A stretch of 64,000 nt of DNA, from the NCBI GenBank assembly GCA_030248295.1, contig JASANH010001677.1, positions 186,001-250,000 of the forward strand. Direction: 5' to 3'. Within the stretch, counting starts at the first letter, position 1. Every line of letters begins with the position of its first letter. The notes under the pieces are model-generated. The model was not told where the DNA came from and made no database searches. It saw nothing but the letters and a program-made list of their open reading frames with translations. The translations under genes were made by a program, and so were the position numbers. This document shows, one piece after another, positions 2,817 to 54,148 of the stretch. Source of the DNA: Mesodorylaimus sp. YZB2_4. Its lineage: Eukaryota > Nematoda > Enoplea > Dorylaimida > Dorylaimidae.

Positions 2817-4820
2817 ATGCAGTATTGGCGATCCTTTCGAGTCGCATCCATCAGTACTACTCTTACGTGGTCCCTGATTGTATTGACACTCGTGGTTGCA
2901 AACTGCAAAGGTCCTGCTTAATTTCACAGCATGCGAGGTGCTAGGAGTGTGGGCCAGTTCCGGTAGGACAGGACAGTGCCTGCGGCTGTTCCACACCTTA
3001 CCGAATCATCACCCATCATGTGTTCATAAATATAATATTTACCCTATATTTCAGCTCAGGAAGACGTGTCAGCTTTATGCCGAGCTGCAGCCGCTAGCCA
3101 AAGTTGTTCTAAATGTGTTCAAACGCACTCACAATGCGCCTGGTGTACAGATTCTGTAAGGGAATTTTAGCTTTTCCCGTCGCCCTCGATATTACTTTTT
3201 TAATGTTCCAGGCGTTTTCAGCCGATTTTCGATGCGATGACGCCAAGAATTTCCACGCTTCTTGTTCTCCGCAGTATCTGTACCAAGAAGCCTCGCACGC
3301 CCGCGTGACCGAGGTACGCCTCGAAGTCTAGACTCGATGTAAATAATAACAGATCAGCTTTTTAGAATGTGGCCGCAGGCACATACGAGCCTCAATATGG
3401 AAAGGTTAGACAAATCGAGCCTCAGCAAGTGCACGTGCTGGCTCGACCTGGTATGTACTGTATTTTTAGCCATGGGAGTGCCACTCCTGCCACAATATGT
3501 TGTATTCCAGGTGAAAGTGTAAGCTTCACACTCAAATATTATCATTCTGAAACAGAGGAGAAGGACATTCACGTATTGAATAGTGATACAGAGTCAAACG
3601 GAGTATCGTTATCTTATTTCATGGATTGCAAAGGGTGTGTTTACGACTCTCAGGAATGCGCGTGCTGTCATACGAGACACGTGTCTGTCATTTTAGCGTC
3701 CACAGCCGAGGACAGACGTGCCGCCGCGTCCAGAATGCAGAAACTGTCAATTTCAACGTTAGTGTCTCAATAAGAGACTGCGACTCGAATGCTGTTGTCA
3801 GCATCGGTATCGGTGGTGTGCGGGAAGTAGTGGCCCTCTATGTGAGGCCCCAGTGCGGATGTGACTGTGAAAAGCCCGACCGCCTGGTATGTTTTATTTC
3901 GCGCCGCCTTAGCTGTGCCAGTCTGAAAAGTCTGACTAGCTTATATTCATACTGTACAGGAGCATCGATCAGGGCATTGTAGTCACGAAGGGACGTTGTC
4001 GTGTGGTGTGTGTCAATGCAATGATCCTAGAAAGGGTGGTCGTCATTGCGAATGTGATTTGCCTAATGGAGTTACTAGCGCTAGTTTGGAAGGCCAATGC
4101 AGACAAGCACCCGACAAGGCCTCCTGCTCTGGACATGGTTATTGCGCGTGTGGAGTCTGCGTTTGCGAACCGCCTAATCTGGTAAGTAGATTGCAGATGT
4201 GCATCATGAATTGACTTTGTCTTTGCAAGGATCTCTTTAGTACTGCGGACAATTCTGCGAGCGCACCAATACCGAGTGTCCCGAAGTAGCTGGAGGAAAG
4301 TGTAGCGGGCGTGGAAGCTGTGTCTGTGGCGAATGTGAATGTCATCCTGGATGGTCAGGTTCGAACTGCGAGTGTTCACCAGCAAAAGATAGATGCTTTG
4401 CGGATGACGGAGTGAGCCCCGGATGTTTGTCACTTTTTTGGATGGTTCAGGACCCTGGCATCATAGCAGCTTAGACCGCACCTGGCTTTGTATTTTCAGA
4501 GCCTATGCTCCGGACACGGCAGCTGCACGTGCAACAAGTGCAAATGCGACGATGGGTTTGAGGGCGACAAGTGCGAGCGAGGCGTAGAGCCACCATTAGC
4601 TCCATCGGAAGAGACACCAGAAGAGGATGGCGAAAGCGAGGAAACAGCAACTTCACCCGCAGACGTCCCAGACGAGCCGGAAGAATCGACTTCGGCTTCG
4701 GATGCTCATGAAACACCCAAGGCTGAGCAAGCTGCCGAACCTGGTTCTTCAGCTATTATGTATTCCTATTCTATACTTTTAGTGTCATTCTCTTTCCTCT
4801 GTCTTCGATACTCTCCGTAA
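2817..4820 (+). CDS. Integrin beta-like protein lacking the beta-I domain, probable GPI tail
   Basis: Exons read as 2817-2910, 3055-3155, 3212-3313, 3366-3450, 3511-3634, 3697-3886, 3960-4181, 4241-4411 and 4500-4820, giving 469 residues in one frame. A further intron at 2613-2697 probably lies in the 5' leader. The order is: signal peptide (about 1-30), cysteine-rich PSI domain (about 32-80, with CVQTHSQCAWCTD), hybrid domain (about 105-230), four I-EGF modules (about 228-395, repeated CSGxGxCxCxxCxC), an acidic Ser/Glu/Pro linker, and a hydrophobic end (about 450-466) followed only by RYSP. In integrin beta chains the roughly 240-residue beta-I (von Willebrand A-like) domain interrupts the hybrid domain. 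Here the two hybrid halves meet inside one exon (VSFTLKYYHSE running into GVSLSYFMDC). There is no cytoplasmic tail with NPxY motifs. The first donor (GTCCTG) is weak. By family knowledge it should be secreted or surface-bound; it cannot bind ligand or talin in the usual way. Confidence 0.85.
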
Positions 4821-6380
4821 GTCGTGACTTACGCAAGCTTTGATGCTTTCTAAGACACTGTTACTTGCATTCTACGCTTCTTGCCTTCAACCTTTTTATT
4901 ATCATATTCACAGGCTTATTGGGTTTTAATTCGGTAAAAATAAGACAAACTAAAAACTAACGTTAAAAATTGCGGTGAAAACTAAAAGCAGCCAGATAAA
5001 AAATATTCAATATGGGCCAGGGAAATGTCAGACCCAAAGAAAATGAGAATTTTTGGGGCACTCCCACAATATTCGGTGTTTCTACAGGATTCAAAATCTG
5101 GCAGATGGCATCGCTCAGGGCATGGGTTTCATTCAGTCCAGCCAGAAAACCCAAGGACTTCAACAGTCAGTGGACCTTGGTCTCTTGTCGTACCTACCTA
5201 CAAAAATACCTTCCGAATCTCATGGCCGCACTGACGATGAGTCAACAACGCATCACAAAGCATTTTACGCAACTCATTTTCGGTGCTCGCAATAGTAAAA
5301 AATGCACTCCTATTCGATGAGAAAATGACAACAGAAAGAGACGAGCAGGATGAATATCATAATGACAGCAAAATATACCAATATCATTTCGGCATTGCTT
5401 TCATGGCTGCTTGAAACAGGTAATAGTGGTCTGACGACGACTCCATAAAGGCCTTCATTCGAACCCATTTTCTTCCTTCTTAGCCTCCAACTAAGCTAAT
5501 AAGGTTAGACCAGGCGAGAAAAGACATTCGTCCAAGAACGGCACCAGCCTTCCCCAGCCATGACTAGCGAGATAATGCGAAGGCAGCCAGAGTGTACGGG
5601 CCATCTCGGGTAACTGCGCATGAGAGAACGCATCTATTCTCTTGAAATCAAATATCACCCACCCCTTATTTAGCCGATTGGGTCCGCTAGAGGGAGGGAG
5701 TAGTTTTTTGGTTTTCTGCACACGCTGCAAAACTCAAGGCGCGGTCGATTTTTCCATTGAAAACTGATTGGAAGTAGGCTAACACACGATTGGCAGAAGA
5801 GGTAACTGGGCACGTCACTGTGATTGATTCGAGTGAATAGCGCCTGCCTGTGCACTGACTTTTCTGGCTGACACGCCTTTTATGCTGGCATTCGTGAGAA
5901 TGTGTGAACTTTTAGTCATGGCCTTGTATTGTATCTGATAGAATGGGGCAGTGGTGTGTTGGCATCCTTTTCTTCCTGTCATGTCCCCTCACGATGAGTG
6001 GGGGCGAAAGTGGATGATAGTTGTGGACGAACAACAAACTTTTGCTTATATACTTGGACAGGCGGCACAGCGCAATAGAACGAGGTCAGAGCGAAAAACC
6101 GCATACCTAGCTAAACACTCCTAAGGGCTTCCTATCCGTGTCTAGTAGCAGTATTTCAAGCATTCGGCTCGAGTCTTCGGCACAATCACACCGCGATAGA
6201 ACTCGCATCTTGGATAACTGAAGGAAATACAATCATCGATACCTTGGGCCGTCTTGACCTAATAAGCAACGGAAAATGGTTGAGATGAGGACGTGAGAGA
6301 TGGGTGGATCTAGACTTGTCTGGTTGGCGTGAGCTTTGGTGGGAGAGGCACCGAATCAGAGCAGAGTGAGGATTCTTGCC
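4821..6380. other. Intergenic stretch, nothing recognised
   Basis: Short frames on both strands (for example around 5012-5320) show no signal peptide, domain or splice continuity. No inverted repeat or RNA gene was noticed. Confidence 0.4.
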
Positions 6381-7434
6381 TCAAGTGGGCATCTTCCCGA
6401 CAGAAAACCTCATAAACCCTGCCAGACTTATGAGGTTGTATGAACGTACCATGCGTTTGTATCCAACTGCGAATTCGCAGTTTTGTGCCTTCTTGCGGGT
6501 GATGTCGATCAGTTTTGGCAAGTCTTGTTCTTGAACACCAGAGCAACCACTGGATGGGCTACCTGAAAAACCACCCGTATAAGTCTGCTCAGAAGAAAGG
6601 GCTATGAATTTACCTTCAGGGCACTGGCATTCGAAGCAGCCAAAATCCTTTTCGATAGGGGTGCATTCTCCGTAACAACCGGGCATGGCTTTGCAATCTG
6701 AAATCAAACAGCATTAAACGTCTCATAGGAGAGATCGTTCCTGTCTGAAACATACTGTGAGCGCAAACAGTCACATTGACGTAGATGACTTCATCGAAAG
6801 TCAATTGAGCGTCGAAGCCTTGCAGCATAAGCTTAGCGATTGGTGGTTGTTCAGGAAGAGTAGTCTCCAGGGGAATGCGTTTACCAGCCTGCACTTGCTG
6901 AAAGAAATGATCAGAAAGTTTGCAGTTGTGCTTCGGCGATTGGCGTGTCTTGCGTTAATGCACTAAGCATCCCACTGCACGGTTTCTTGAGTCAAGACAT
7001 GGCGAGGAGATGGCAGTAGGCGGGAAATGATTTCGACGGGCTTCTTACTGGGTCTTGTAAAGCTTTAGCACTGATTACACTTACATAGAAGCGTCCCCTC
7101 AAGTTTCCGTTCTCATCATAAGTAATGACTCGGACATCGGGATTGACACGCATTTGAACCGTGATCTTGTACAAGTCGACTGTGCGATTGAAATTGAGAC
7201 GAACGAAGCGTAATGGACCATCGATCACTTGTTCCCAATATGAGCCATCCTCGAAATCACTTCGGCCACGTCCTTTGAGTAACTCGTCGCCAGTCAAGCC
7301 GTATCGACGACAGAAGTCTACAATGAGCAGAACAATGTCGATGCAGCTCGGTGAGCAGATACGCAATTCTTACTTTGAGCAGATACCATATTGAATAGGG
7401 CAATGGCAAGGACGATCAAGTGCTTGATTTCCAT
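6381..7434 (-). CDS. Secreted cysteine-rich protein of unknown family
   Basis: Exons on the minus strand: 7374-7434, 7085-7317, 6756-6897, 6614-6697 and 6381-6562, together 233 residues in one frame with GT-AG borders. The start at 7434 gives a clear signal peptide (MEIKHLIVLAIALFNMVSA). The next 78 residues (DGSYWEQVIDGPLRFVRLNF, then VDLYKITVQMRVNPDVRVI) look like a beta-sandwich and faintly recall a discoidin-type fold. The part after VTVCAH is rich in cysteines (CKAMPGCYGEC, CFECQCPEG). The C-terminus is uncertain: the last exon can run straight to the stop at 6381 or splice again just after YKRM. I do not recognise the family. The signal peptide and cysteines argue for an extracellular role. 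Confidence 0.6.
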
Positions 7435-20022: not shown

Positions 20023-20511
20023 GGAGTTAAAAATATCAAAACAGAAAATTCTACAAGAAATCACTAAAATCTTTCCGAAACTTTGATTTATAAAACTTTT
20101 CTTTTTCCCTCGAACAACATTTTGAACCACAAATCCAAGAACTCGTTGACCGGTTACAGTAAACCTGGAAAATTACAATTTGGAATGGTCCACTGTGAAT
20201 GTGTGCGCTTAATACGTCTAGACCAGCCAATCATTCGCTTCGATGCTCCCGACTGTCGTCTTCCTTTTATGGATGTTTGAGTGTGTCAACAGTTCACAGC
20301 TGTTGTATCGAATTATTTTCGTAGAATTTTTCAATGCAAGCAAGCGCCTTGGTCACGAATCCGTCCTAGGCCTATATTCTTTCTAAAAGGTGTTTATTCG
20401 GGGACTCAGTCAATGCTCAGGTCTTTTTTCCTAAACGACGATAATCGAAGTCGTGATAGAATAGCTTGTCTAATTGTCGATTTTATATCAAAACGCTAAT
20501 TGCTATTCGAA

Positions 20512-21066
20512 ATGCGAGAATTCAAAGTTGTCGTTTTGGGAAGCGGTGGTGTCGGCAAGAGCGCATTGACGGTACAATTCGTCTCGAATACGTTCATCGA
20601 AAAGTATGACCCTACGATCGAAGATTTTTATCGTAAAGAGATCGAAGTAGACGGACAACCATGCGTGCTAGAAATATTGGACACTGCTGGTACCGAGCAA
20701 TTTGCTAGCATGCGTGATTTGTATATCAAGAATGGACAAGGCTTCGTTATCGTTTATTCCATCACTAGTCATCAAACATTCCACGATATCAAGGGCATGC
20801 GAGATCAAATACTTCGAGTCAAAGGCGCCGATCAAGTGCCAATACTTTTGGTGGGAAATAAATGCGATTTGGAACATCAAAGACAAGTTCGAAATCAAGA
20901 AGGTTATGCGTTAGCCGAATTTTGGGGTTGTCCATTCGTCGAATGTTCAGCAAAAGTGGCTCAAAATGTCAACACCGTTTTCGCTGAAATTGTACGTGAA
21001 ATGAATTTCGCCCAAAAACAACGACAGCAATTAAAACGAGTATGCGGATGTTGCAATATTCTTTAA
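20512..21066 (+). CDS. RAP2: Ras-family small GTPase Rap2
   Basis: One uninterrupted frame of 184 residues. It has GSGGVGKS (P loop), the effector loop [31 protein letters not shown] (switch II), NKCD and ECSAK. The phenylalanine in the effector loop ([10 protein letters not shown]) and the sequence [14 protein letters not shown] point to Rap2 rather than Rap1. The end CGCCNIL offers a CAAX box (CNIL, leucine end favours geranylgeranylation) with extra cysteines for palmitoylation. Rap2 acts in cell adhesion and cytoskeletal signalling. The start at 20512 is set by MREFK, the conserved N-terminus. There are no introns, unlike its neighbours. It lies head to head with WDR48, with about 490 bases between start codons that may serve both. 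Confidence 0.95.
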
Positions 21067-25466: not shown

Positions 25467-28400
25467 TTATTTTACAATAACTTTACTTTTCGATTTATCA
25501 CAGCCGGCAGAGTTTGGCCAATCGCACACCAATGCATCTTTGTTGAAGTGGAGACCAGCTGGACAACCGTGTTTGTACACGATACCAGAATCATCGCATT
25601 GGAGAAATGAAGTGCATGATGATGGATCAGGATGCAGACCAGCTTCATGGCATTCGAAGGGGCCACTCGAAGTTGTCGAAGAGATGGGAACGGGCGGCGG
25701 TGTACTCGTTGATCGATCAGGGAGAGGGGGCGAGATCGACGATTGCAATGGCACGGACTGATGTACAGTGGTGGTGGATGCAACGTGGGGCGTTGCTGGT
25801 TGACTGCCTCCTGGTGGCTGCTGATTAGTCTAAAGCGGAGGGATTACAGCCAAGTGTCAGGGAGAGAGCCAGCATCACTTACACCCGAGATTGCCTCGCC
25901 ACCTTGCAATTTGGTCTTTATAGCCGATATCATTGGATACTTCTTGCCAGCACTCGATGAGCAACGGCCAAGGAAGTCGTCCATGTCCAACGACCACACA
26001 AAAGCCCCCGCGTATCCGTTGTCTATCAGCCAATCCAACTAAAGTACACTGGGTTGTACTGGCAGTCACAGAAGGAGGCTCAAGGGGTGCATACCTTTTC
26101 ATTAAAGCTTCTCACGTCGTCGTACCCAATCCATACACCGTCCTTATACACGTACGGAACCCGTTGCACCGAATCGTATTGATAAGTGAACTGCTTATTT
26201 CCTATCATATCGCAGATTTCGTAGTAAGAGGCCACTCCAGCCTCGCGAGTAAACGTCTGCGGGAGAGATGGACCATTAGCTGGAGATCCGATCTCGGTAG
26301 GAGACGAAGAAGCTGGCACTGCCCAACCACGACCATATGTGGCAAAACCGACCACCAACTTGTCCTTCGGAAAGCCTTGTTTCGTACTCCAATATGTCAT
26401 GGCTGAACTGAGCGAAAGACGGTCGTTGTTACGATCAAACAACGGAGAGCTGAATCCAGTCTTCCTCTCCCAGCCACCATGGAAATCATAGGTCATGACA
26501 TTGATGAAATCGAACCAGCTAAAACAAAAAGAGCACAGTAAGCGATGAGGTCACGACACAGGCCATGTATGGAATAGCCAAGTATTTTAGGTTTAGCTGG
26601 CATTGGAGGACCAGTGTAACCAAGCCTGGCAGGCGTAGGAGGGAGATTGTCGGATGGAGATTGAAGATTGGCTATGGATAAAGGGTCACATGTCACATGT
26701 CGACCGAAGTCGGCGGGACAAAAACTCCGACTGCAGCAGGTAAGTCTTGCGACTGCATACGGCTGAAGCATCAACCCGAGGGGTTGACGTATCCCAGCCA
26801 GTGAAGAGTATAAATTAGTCTATCCCACTCGCCATGCTCCACCAGGCACGAGGGTTACACCAGTGCTGACTGCATAAATCCAAACAAGGGCTTGCACAGA
26901 AGCCCTAAGCAATGAGGGCACTGATCAGAAAAGGAGAGAGCAACGTAGCCACTTACTTGGCCAGAGCTTTTCCGTTGTATCCTGCAGATATGCGTTCGAT
27001 GCCAGCCGCAACTGCTGCCGTCAACAGAAGCCGAGGTCTACCTGTCGTGGCCGACTCAGCATCGAAGGCTTCGCGCATTTCCTGAAAAATAGTTTTATTC
27101 TAACCACATGCCCAGCAGAGGCACAACTGTATTTTTGTTACCACTAGCTCTGCTTACATATATGCATGGTTGCAGAGCTCATTATAAAATCCTTGGCTCG
27201 CCCAAGGGCGGACTAGAACTGACCTGAAGAAGGCCTTCTACAGTGTAAAAGGCGTGGATGGACCTATCAGTGCACTGGTTCAGGGAGCTGGTCGGCCTAT
27301 CCTAAGTCAGTCCCAAGCTCGAGTTACTGGTCCAATTTTGTAGGCATCGGTTGACGACTGCTGGTCTTGAGTTCCTCGCCTGAACTTGCTCTGTGAGCAC
27401 TTCGGGGTCAGGTCTGTCAGAACCCTGTTTACGGCAAACACGTGCGGCTGCCCCCAATCGAGAGTCTATAAGAGCCGGTCGTTCCCTTCAGTAACACGGA
27501 CCCAGCCGTACTACAATGAGGGGCGTTCGCAAAATGCGGCACGAGAAGTAGTGGACTGCGTGGGGGCGTTCCTGGCTTGAGCTATCCTCTGGTCAGTGTA
27601 GCCAGCACCCTTAGCGGTTGGGAGTAATCGATACGCTCTCCTGGCTGGGACGCCAACCTCTTCGGTTAATGTTTCTAGGTCAGGTATAGTCGCGAGACTT
27701 GCCTACCTTTAGTCGGAGATTTTTTGCCTTGAGATTTCGGTCTCGACTACCTCCCGCCGCCTGGGTGCGCTGGTTACATTAGCCCTAGTTGGCCCTTGCA
27801 CGAGCCGAGGATTTTCACAGGAACAAGCCCACGCAGTCTACGACACCTCATGTATAGTTTATGATAGTAGCCACAAACAAGGGTCCTTCAGGCAGGCAAT
27901 GCAAGGAGCAACCGGACGTGTCCTAAGGGTCCTAGACCCAAGTTTCTTGAACGGAATTCAGACCAAGAACCCATTACCATTTACCACCGATGCCCGCAAA
28001 CCGAACCAGCCACTCACGACGACAGCCGTGAAGGCGCATTTATAGTCGACAAAATTTCTACTCCTACCCCTAGGGTAGGTGTAATTGCCATATACTTAAG
28101 CGTGTGCTATTACTCCTACCCGAGGGGTAGGTGTAGAAATTTTGTCGACTATAAAGGCGCCTTGAGAGAGCCTCGTGTCTGGTCCTACGAGGGGCAGACC
28201 AGTTCTCTGAACCCATAGATGCAGATAAGATGTGAATGCCTATTACAACAATCCTACTCACTTTTGGTGGCTTCTTACCTTGATGAGGGTAGTATATGCA
28301 CCCTTTGTTCCCCAGTCAGGATACTCCCAGTCGAAATCGAAACCATCAAACCCCAGTCGCCGAACGAAGGCCACCACGGAGTCGATGAAGACACGACGAT

Positions 28401-39613: not shown

Positions 39614-39667
39614 CCGAACGATTTGGAGACCTAGTCATTAGTGGCATCGACGACAAAGAAAGAAAAG

Positions 39668-40477
39668 ATGAAGATCGCGGTCGTTTTCCTCGCAGTGTTC
39701 GTCATTGGAGCCTTGGCTAGACGGCCAGGCGGTGGACAAGGAGGACAGGGCGGTCAAGGTGGTGGAAGACCAGGCGGTGGACAAGGAGGCCAAGGCGGCG
39801 GACGACCAGGCGGTGGACAAGGAGGCCAAGGCGGCGGACGACCAGGCGGTGGACAAGGCGGCCAAGGTGGCCCTGGCGGTGATGAAGGCGAAGGTGGCTT
39901 TGGTGGTCCAGGCGGTCAAGGTGGTCAAGGTGGTGGACGACCAGGCGGTGGACAAGGAGGCCAAGGCGGTGGACGACCAGGCGGTGGACAAGGTGGCCAA
40001 GGCGGTGGACGACCAGGCGGTGGACAAGGAGGGCAAGGCGGTGGACGACCAGGCGGTGGACAAGGAGGGCAAGGCGGTGGACGACCAGGCGGTGGACAAG
40101 GTGGTCAAGGCGGTGGACGACCAGGAGGTGGACAAGGTGGCCAAGGCGGTGGACGACCAGGCGGTGGACAAGGAGGGCAAGGCGGTGGACGACCAGGCGG
40201 TGGACAAGGTGGTCAAGGCGGTGGACGACCAGGAGGTGGCCAAGGAGGTCAGGGTGGCCAGGGTGGTGAAGAAGGCGAAGGCGGATTTGGCGGTCCTGGC
40301 GGCCAAGGTGGCTTCGGGGGTCAGGGAGGCTTTGGTGGACCCAGCGGCCAAGGTGGCTTTGGCGGTCAGGGAGGCTTTGGCGGACCCGGCGGCCAAGGTG
40401 GCTTCGGTGGTCAGGGCGGCTTTGGTGGCCCTGGTGGTCAAGAAGGCGGATTCAGCCAGGAAGACGGCGACTTCTAA
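39668..40477 (+). CDS. Secreted glycine-rich repeat protein
   Basis: 269 residues in one exon. The ATG at 39668 begins a clean signal peptide (MKIAVVFLAVFVIGALA). The mature part is almost wholly Gly, Gln, Arg and Pro: tandem copies of a 12-residue unit GRPGGGQGGQGG, broken by acidic segments (GGDEGEGGFGGPGG and EEGEGGFGG), then GGFGGQGGFGGP repeats and an acidic end EDGDF. Such proteins occur in cuticles, silks, adhesives and mucus, and some invertebrate Gly-rich secreted peptides are antimicrobial; the sequence does not decide. The TATA box is close and an AATAAA follows. A broken paralogue with the same leader lies 14 kb away. Confidence 0.85.
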   Translation: MKIAVVFLAVFVIGALARRPGGGQGGQGGQGGGRPGGGQGGQGGGRPGGGQGGQGGGRPGGGQGGQGGPGGDEGEGGFGGPGGQGGQGGGRPGGGQGGQGGGRPGGGQGGQGGGRPGGGQGGQGGGRPGGGQGGQGGGRPGGGQGGQGGGRPGGGQGGQGGGRPGGGQGGQGGGRPGGGQGGQGGGRPGGGQGGQGGQGGEEGEGGFGGPGGQGGFGGQGGFGGPSGQGGFGGQGGFGGPGGQGGFGGQGGFGGPGGQEGGFSQEDGDF

Positions 40478-40569: not shown

Positions 40570-43936
<3,367 letters not shown>

Positions 43937-53701: not shown

Positions 53702-53708
53702 TATAAAA
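53702..53708 (+). promoter_or_regulatory. TATA box of the broken glycine-rich copy
   Basis: TATAAAA, placed 62 bases before the lost start codon exactly as in the intact gene. Confidence 0.7.
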
Positions 53709-53763
53709 GGGTCCGCCTTTGCGAATCAGCCAGATCACTGGTATCGACGATAAGAAAGAAAAG

Positions 53764-54148
53764 ACGAAAATCGCAGTCGTTTTCCTCGCAGTGTTCGTCA
53801 TTGGAGCCTTGGCTAGAAGGCCAGGCGGTGGACAAGGAGGCCAGGGTGGTGGACAAGGAGGCCAAGGCGGCCAGGGCGATGGACGACCAGGCGGTGGCCA
53901 AGGAGGCCAAGGCGGTGGTCAAGGCGGCGGACGACCAGGCGGTGGACAAGGAGGCCAAGGCGGTCAAGGTGGCCAAGGGGGTAAGGATGTTATTTATGGA
54001 AGAGTGCTGTAATATCTCCAAGCCAACAGGAGCAAGTAAGCCTAAGCCGCACTCTGACATGACACTTCTTCCCCTTTTTTAAGGCGGTCGTCCAAGCGGC
54101 CAAGGAGGTTAAGGTGGATCCAATGGCGAGGAAGGCGGCGACTTTTGA
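53764..54148 (+). pseudogene. Glycine-rich protein paralogue, disabled
   Basis: Near-identical to the intact gene at 39.67 kb from the 5' leader through the signal sequence (TKIAVVFLAVFVIGALA), but the start codon is ACG instead of ATG and no other in-frame ATG precedes the signal. The repeat region is much shorter. After GGQGG a 103-base interruption with GTAAGG and TTTTTTAAG ends (53981-54083) may be an intron; beyond it GRPSGQGG runs into TAA where the pattern predicts CAA, and then GGSNGEEGGDF and a stop complete the original C-terminus. Two single-base transitions therefore account for both lesions. Confidence 0.75.

Follow-up and report, generated by a model that had tools for sequence, protein, structure and literature searches.

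The window, a stretch of 64,000 nucleotides equivalent to positions 186001-250000 of contig C122 in a genome of 145 Mb and 1067 contigs, encodes on its forward strand (2817-4820) a relative of the integrin beta chains. Rebuilding the gene via GT-AG splice sites gave nine exons (Table 1) and a protein of 469 residues, the same length as in the preliminary description of this DNA. Least secure is the junction 3' of exon 1, whose donor (AAG/GTCCTG at 2911) scores -2.5 bits, the lowest among the 24 donors from which the donor matrix was made (leave-one-out scores -2.5 to 10.2). Because of this weak donor, and because exon 1 of the paralog described below is itself only a candidate, the putative signal peptide is not firm.

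Table 1. Features of the integrin beta-related gene, in window coordinates
Feature	Position	Strand	Basis or remark
Exon 1	2817..2910	+	ATG at 2817; signal-like peptide MQYWRSFRVASISTTLTWSLIVLTLVVANCK by reading; donor weak
Exons 2 (3055-3155) and 3 (3212-3313): PSI, seven Cys including the first	3055..3313	+	PF17205 in exon 2; aligned to paralog and C1 beta
Exon 4: opening part of hybrid domain; last residues ..EPQQVHVLARP(G), phase 1	3366..3450	+	Intron position and phase as in C1 and C23 (acceptor side)
Exon 5: join exon, 124 bases	3511..3634	+	Flanking introns common to C1, C23 and paralog
Approximate site at which beta-I is missing, flanked by YYHS and IHVLNS	3549..3566	+	Alignments with C1 beta minus beta-I and with PDB 2p26
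Exon 6: remainder of hybrid domain, first Cys of I-EGF1	3697..3886	+	phmmer and alignment
Exon 7: I-EGF1 and I-EGF2	3960..4181	+	PF18372, PF23105; alignment
Exon 8: I-EGF3 and start of I-EGF4	4241..4411	+	Alignment
Exon 9 (4500-4820), first part: remainder of I-EGF4	4500..4581	+	PF07974 at residues 358-388; alignment
Acidic, Pro/Ser-rich linker, at the usual place of the beta-tail domain	4582..4733	+	No Pfam match; similar linker in paralog
C-terminal tail, AEPGSSA-hydrophobic-RYSP	4734..4817	+	Alignment; hydropathy
Donor-like GTAAGT enclosing the TAA stop (4818-4820), phase 2	4817..4822	+	4.0 bits
Nearest possible acceptor AG	4912..4913	+	6.2 bits; splicing 4817-4913 would give ..RYSPLIGF

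Domain content and fold

When compared with the PDB by phmmer, the window protein matches integrin beta-1 best (E 1.1e-49), in two overlapping stretches that cover residues 19-149 (ending where beta-I begins) and 321-632 (late beta-I onwards) of that chain. A Pfam scan of the protein returned five families, with EGF_2 (37.5 bits), EGF_integrin (34.9 bits) and I-EGF_1 (26.2 bits, against a cut-off of 26.1 bits) over their cut-offs and two teneurin-EGF models below theirs; an NCBIfam scan, whose models are prokaryotic, gave no match. PSI_integrin (PF17205) is unlisted by hmmscan of the whole protein and scores 29.9 bits, over its cut-off, in a six-frame search of exon 2; the paralog scores 43.7 bits. 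The hybrid domain is present in phmmer alignments spanning the region, and four I-EGF modules are recognized by Pfam, phmmer and alignment. With PSI and hybrid domains present, the protein is more than an EGF-only stalk of the ITGBL1 kind.

Integrin beta chains are generally defined by their beta-I domain. The model of this domain (PF00362) has no match in the window protein, nor on C122 or on C137, the contig that carries the paralog; contigs C1 and C23 account for all nine matches found in the genome and likewise for all four matches to the cytoplasmic domain (PF08725), and because of this distribution the genome can be said to hold two ordinary integrin betas. C. elegans has one integrin beta. 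No NPxY motif was found in window positions 4821-6400 or in the 0.8 kb downstream of the paralog. The search with the beta-tail model (PF07965) was insensitive: it gave a single match, below cut-off and on C23, and missed the ordinary C1 beta too; by reading, the linker of the window protein directly follows I-EGF4, and no beta-tail domain was seen.

Like the C1, C23 and human beta-1 chains, the window protein has a signal-like start, PSI, hybrid and I-EGF1-4 in this order; unlike them, it shows no beta-I domain, no NPxY tail and no true membrane helix. These results bear out the preliminary description where it stated that beta-I is cleanly absent, that the transmembrane-cytoplasmic NPxY module is missing, and that PSI, hybrid and four I-EGF modules are retained, and we are close to certain of this predicted anatomy of a beta-I-less, NPxY-less integrin beta relative. 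Lacking beta-I, the protein falls outside the integrin beta subunits as defined by that domain; beta-I-less, anchor-swapped integrin beta paralog would be the most apt name for it.

Outside beta-I, 41 of 44 Cys columns are conserved across the C1 beta, the window protein and the paralog. Of the three exceptions, two stem from a single shift in I-EGF3 (4241-4411) of the window protein, where a conserved Cys is lost and another gained six alignment columns upstream; the paralog differs in this respect. When only the hybrid region served as query, PDB 2p26 gave the highest-scoring single alignment spanning the join among those shown, an unbroken one of 36.8 bits. The four displayed beta-1 chains each cover the join in two pieces (13-14 and 21-23 bits) and by whole-sequence score stand slightly above 2p26 (39.1 versus 37.7 bits). 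The 2p26 entry comprises 280 residues of integrin beta-2, a length from which it follows that beta-I was removed by design. In the alignment, the 2p26 join and the natural join nearly coincide, and the table rows for PDB 5e6w and 5e6v give matches over the same range. These three entries are described as crystal structures of PSI/hybrid/I-EGF pieces, 2p26 comprising PSI, hybrid and I-EGF1-2 (PMC10518620). They resemble the window protein in these domains, and 2p26 also in the place where its hybrid halves meet without beta-I, but they are pieces of a human chain and have neither linker nor tail. The conserved cysteines and these alignments argue strongly that the PSI-hybrid-I-EGF leg of the window protein would still fold.

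The join exon and a second gene

As the preliminary description proposed, the join lies inside a single exon. In the C1 beta gene, a phase 1 intron precedes ..NETGQ.. and a phase 2 intron follows ..AICK(N).., and both are the same in the window gene and the paralog; both boundaries also agree in C23, each read from one side (acceptor, then donor). Between these two introns lie seven exons in C1, which we number 5 to 11, and only the join exon in the window gene; this exon looks like a fusion of the 5' end of ordinary exon 5 with the 3' end of ordinary exon 11. Because the introns on either side are at the same places and in the same phases as in C1 and C23, beta-I was very probably lost through an internal, frame-keeping genomic deletion that fused ordinary exons 5 and 11. 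Within the beta-I region of the C1 gene, an intron after VAEYN is apparently of the GC-AG type (AAT/GCAAGT).

The paralog on C137 likewise spans the join without a break (65% identity to residues 127-174 of the window protein), and because this independent gene does so, the join is beyond chance. The single in-frame TAA in the C137 match is at an exon donor, the match extending beyond the exon end. Exons 2-9 of the paralog have the order and phases of the window gene, and from PSI to I-EGF4 the two proteins are identical at 202 of 357 positions (57%). Over 355 codons of this region, the proportions of differing sites are 0.75 for synonymous and 0.285 for non-synonymous sites, for which no ratio is given because synonymous change is saturated; amino-acid change is strongly held back, and neither gene looks decayed. 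Conservation between the two genes peaks in the join exon, where 29 of 41 residues are identical; with Cys set aside, the figure is 28 of 40 positions versus 133 of 271 elsewhere (p 0.017 in an unplanned, uncorrected comparison), nearly equalled by exon 4 (19/29). Genome searches with the window protein and the paralog as queries, in which only the best candidates were scored, place at least two copies of this layout in the genome, on C122 and C137 only; the other matches were to the C1 and C23 betas and to EGF stretches on C520 and C415 that by eye are teneurin-like and nidogen-like. Together the two genes make up a conserved integrin beta paralog family within a single nematode.

Two other accounts of the missing domain were considered. 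An artefact, whether a missed exon, a misassembly or a pseudogene, is hardly credible: two contigs carry the same layout with open frames and constraint, neither has a beta-I match, and no point in its favour was found. A missed beta-I exon was accordingly rejected because PF00362 has no match on either contig and the paralog repeats the join, and a pseudogene because of the open frames and the constraint on amino acids. The layout could alternatively be an ancestral state that predates the insertion of beta-I. An unrooted tree of five sequences (window gene, paralog, C1, C23 and human beta-1) is compatible with this idea in that a long branch with support of 100 parts both genes from the other three, but the introns on either side of beta-I and nearly all Cys are shared with ordinary betas, and to our knowledge integrin betas generally carry beta-I, so that we regard an ancestral origin as very improbable. 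In the same tree C1 and C23 pair with support of 90; if the root lies outside this pair, the split would be older than the C1/C23 duplication, and the tree gives no age of the split relative to nematodes.

C-terminal tail and possible mode of action

In both genes, an acidic linker (of the same kind in the paralog, with an Asp run) leads to a shared EPG(S/N), which may hold a GPI attachment residue, and then to a short hydrophobic run: EPGSSA and about 18 residues in the window protein, EPGNTT and about 15 in the paralog. Over the best 19 residues, hydropathy is 1.77 and 1.78 in the two tails, whereas the C1 and C23 beta membrane helices reach 3.32 and 3.23; the lower values would fit a GPI signal more readily than a membrane-spanning helix. 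The positive residues after the hydrophobic run (RYSP in the window protein, NRR in the paralog) would suit a short membrane anchor too, and overall we put the chance of a GPI anchor at about even. The last residues are not settled, because the TAA stop is embedded in GTAAGT; the paralog likewise has its stop in a donor-like GTAA (C137:106132-106135, the start of GTAAAT) in the same phase 2, scoring 7.1 bits versus 4.0 bits in the window gene.

These sites raise a less probable but substantial alternative, that the stop-overlapping intron is spliced and the same leg is secreted or held by a short single-pass anchor, with no GPI. Behind the window gene, 12 acceptor-like sites above 3 bits, as far as 6223, would add 5 to 69 residues; besides the acceptor at 4913 they include the best-scoring one at 5483 (8.5 bits), with which the protein would end in RYSPLQLS. 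Several observations speak against such splicing: tail hydropathy is far under that of true membrane helices, the window donor is mediocre, and the three best acceptors of the paralog, whose own 12 sites would add 3 to at least 30 residues, give the ends SGI, SFV and RGF, unlike PLIGF or PLQLS in the window protein. Moreover, a translated search of the two downstream stretches revealed no exon common to both genes, its one match (E 0.72) being taken as chance. The GPI-type tail of the preliminary description therefore remains the best-fitting reading, given the low hydropathy and EPG(S/N), while the exact end that it assigned is uncertain, with the stop inside a donor-like site. Whatever the final residues, no signalling tail of known kind was found.

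In integrins, ligand is bound by the beta-I domain, which also makes the principal contact to the alpha propeller; the membrane/tail pair provides a second alpha-beta contact, and the tail binds talin and kindlin. With beta-I lost, there would be no ligand site or propeller contact, and with the membrane and tail parts lost, no binding of talin or kindlin. The domain content thus strongly suggests a chain incapable of MIDAS ligand binding, of forming a normal head with an alpha chain, and of talin/kindlin binding. Taken as a whole, the best explanation, which we consider probable, is a ligand-blind integrin beta leg at the cell surface that works through side contacts. Such a chain would be exported, its tail would be cleaved off, and it may be held on the outer face of the membrane by GPI near EPG(S/N), as a disulfide-braced, rigid leg atop a flexible acidic stem. 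Our guess is that PSI, hybrid and I-EGF make contacts through their sides, and that the leg most likely touches the legs of ordinary integrins and restrains or competes with them.

The function of such a leg can be narrowed less well, as its sequence would fit decoy or regulatory and structural roles equally, and these cannot be told apart. We tentatively suggest regulation of ordinary integrins, though it is on balance unlikely; the leaning to a cell-surface integrin modulator comes from ITGBL1 and zebrafish beta1tr being the nearest precedents. More doubtful still is the specific proposal that the remade top of the hybrid domain is a new binding face, through which a GPI-anchored, signal-dead leg tunes ordinary integrins in the same membrane. 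The leg could instead be a structural or adhesive stalk, either a spacer or a cell-cell or matrix adhesion protein, unrelated to integrin regulation. The EGF stalk, the acidic stem and the lack of any detected signalling part are all in keeping with this role, as is the join exon, conserved in both copies as a new contact face would be; nothing specific speaks against it, and we count it as about as probable as integrin regulation, short of an even chance. Leg-mediated pairing with an alpha chain, which would make the protein a ligand-dead, dominant-negative beta, could draw on the retained hybrid, PSI and I-EGF1-4 with nearly all Cys, but beta-I, with its propeller contact, and the membrane/tail pair are both missing. 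Because both main alpha-beta contacts are gone, partnership with an alpha chain is the least likely of the three roles offered in the preliminary description (decoy, structural protein or alpha-chain partner), and we judge it improbable. A genome search for the alpha-chain family (PF08441) returned zero matches and, having no positive control, is uninformative on absence.

Known proteins offer partial likenesses to a leg of this kind. ITGBL1 (TIED) is not known to have a PSI or a hybrid domain. It is reported as a secreted inhibitor of integrins with ten EGF repeats (PMC8921176); it is alike in being a stand-alone integrin-type EGF stalk, and unlike in that repeat number and in being secreted rather than anchored. 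The zebrafish beta1tr paralogs are also truncated after I-EGF4, ending four residues past it with no membrane or cytoplasmic part, and a role as secreted regulators of integrins is their authors' speculation; they retain the A (beta-I) domain and lack any anchor-like tail (PMC1538996). Smbeta-Int1, a platyhelminth beta integrin, is another worm-specific form, with PSI and one annotated EGF domain, but it retains the VWA (beta-I) domain and the membrane helix (PMC3531407). Searches of an open-access library brought up no natural beta-I-less beta chain, which is weak evidence of absence.

A conserved gene pair that drops beta-I and the signalling tail and keeps the leg with its disulfides suggests that the leg alone may be worth keeping. 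The pair is a natural test of PSI, hybrid and I-EGF by themselves, which are otherwise studied via fragments; if our reading is true, it would be the natural counterpart of the beta-I-less laboratory fragments, the integrin leg having been separated from the head in some nematodes.

Other features of the window and genome

On the reverse strand at about 6384-7434, a neighbouring gene encodes a Cys-containing, secreted-looking protein that starts with MEIKHLIVLAIALFNMVSAQ and has no Pfam match in the pieces 6384-6713 and 6995-7369 or in its first 38 residues. Two forward-strand ORFs (39635-40474 and 53707-54009) have a common signal-like start, KIAVVFLAVFVIGALARRPG; the former is Gly-rich, with no Pfam match. 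The window also contains a Ras-family GTPase ORF (20500-21063, forward strand; PF00071, 200.2 bits), a glycosyl hydrolase 18 stretch (26083-26550, reverse strand) and a papain-family peptidase stretch (43504-43800, forward strand). An arthropod host was considered as well: the RR cuticle domain of arthropods (Chitin_bind_4) had no match, but the search was silent on its controls too and so carries little weight. That the host is a nematode follows from 133 matches across the genome to Col_cuticle_N, the N-domain of nematode cuticle collagens.
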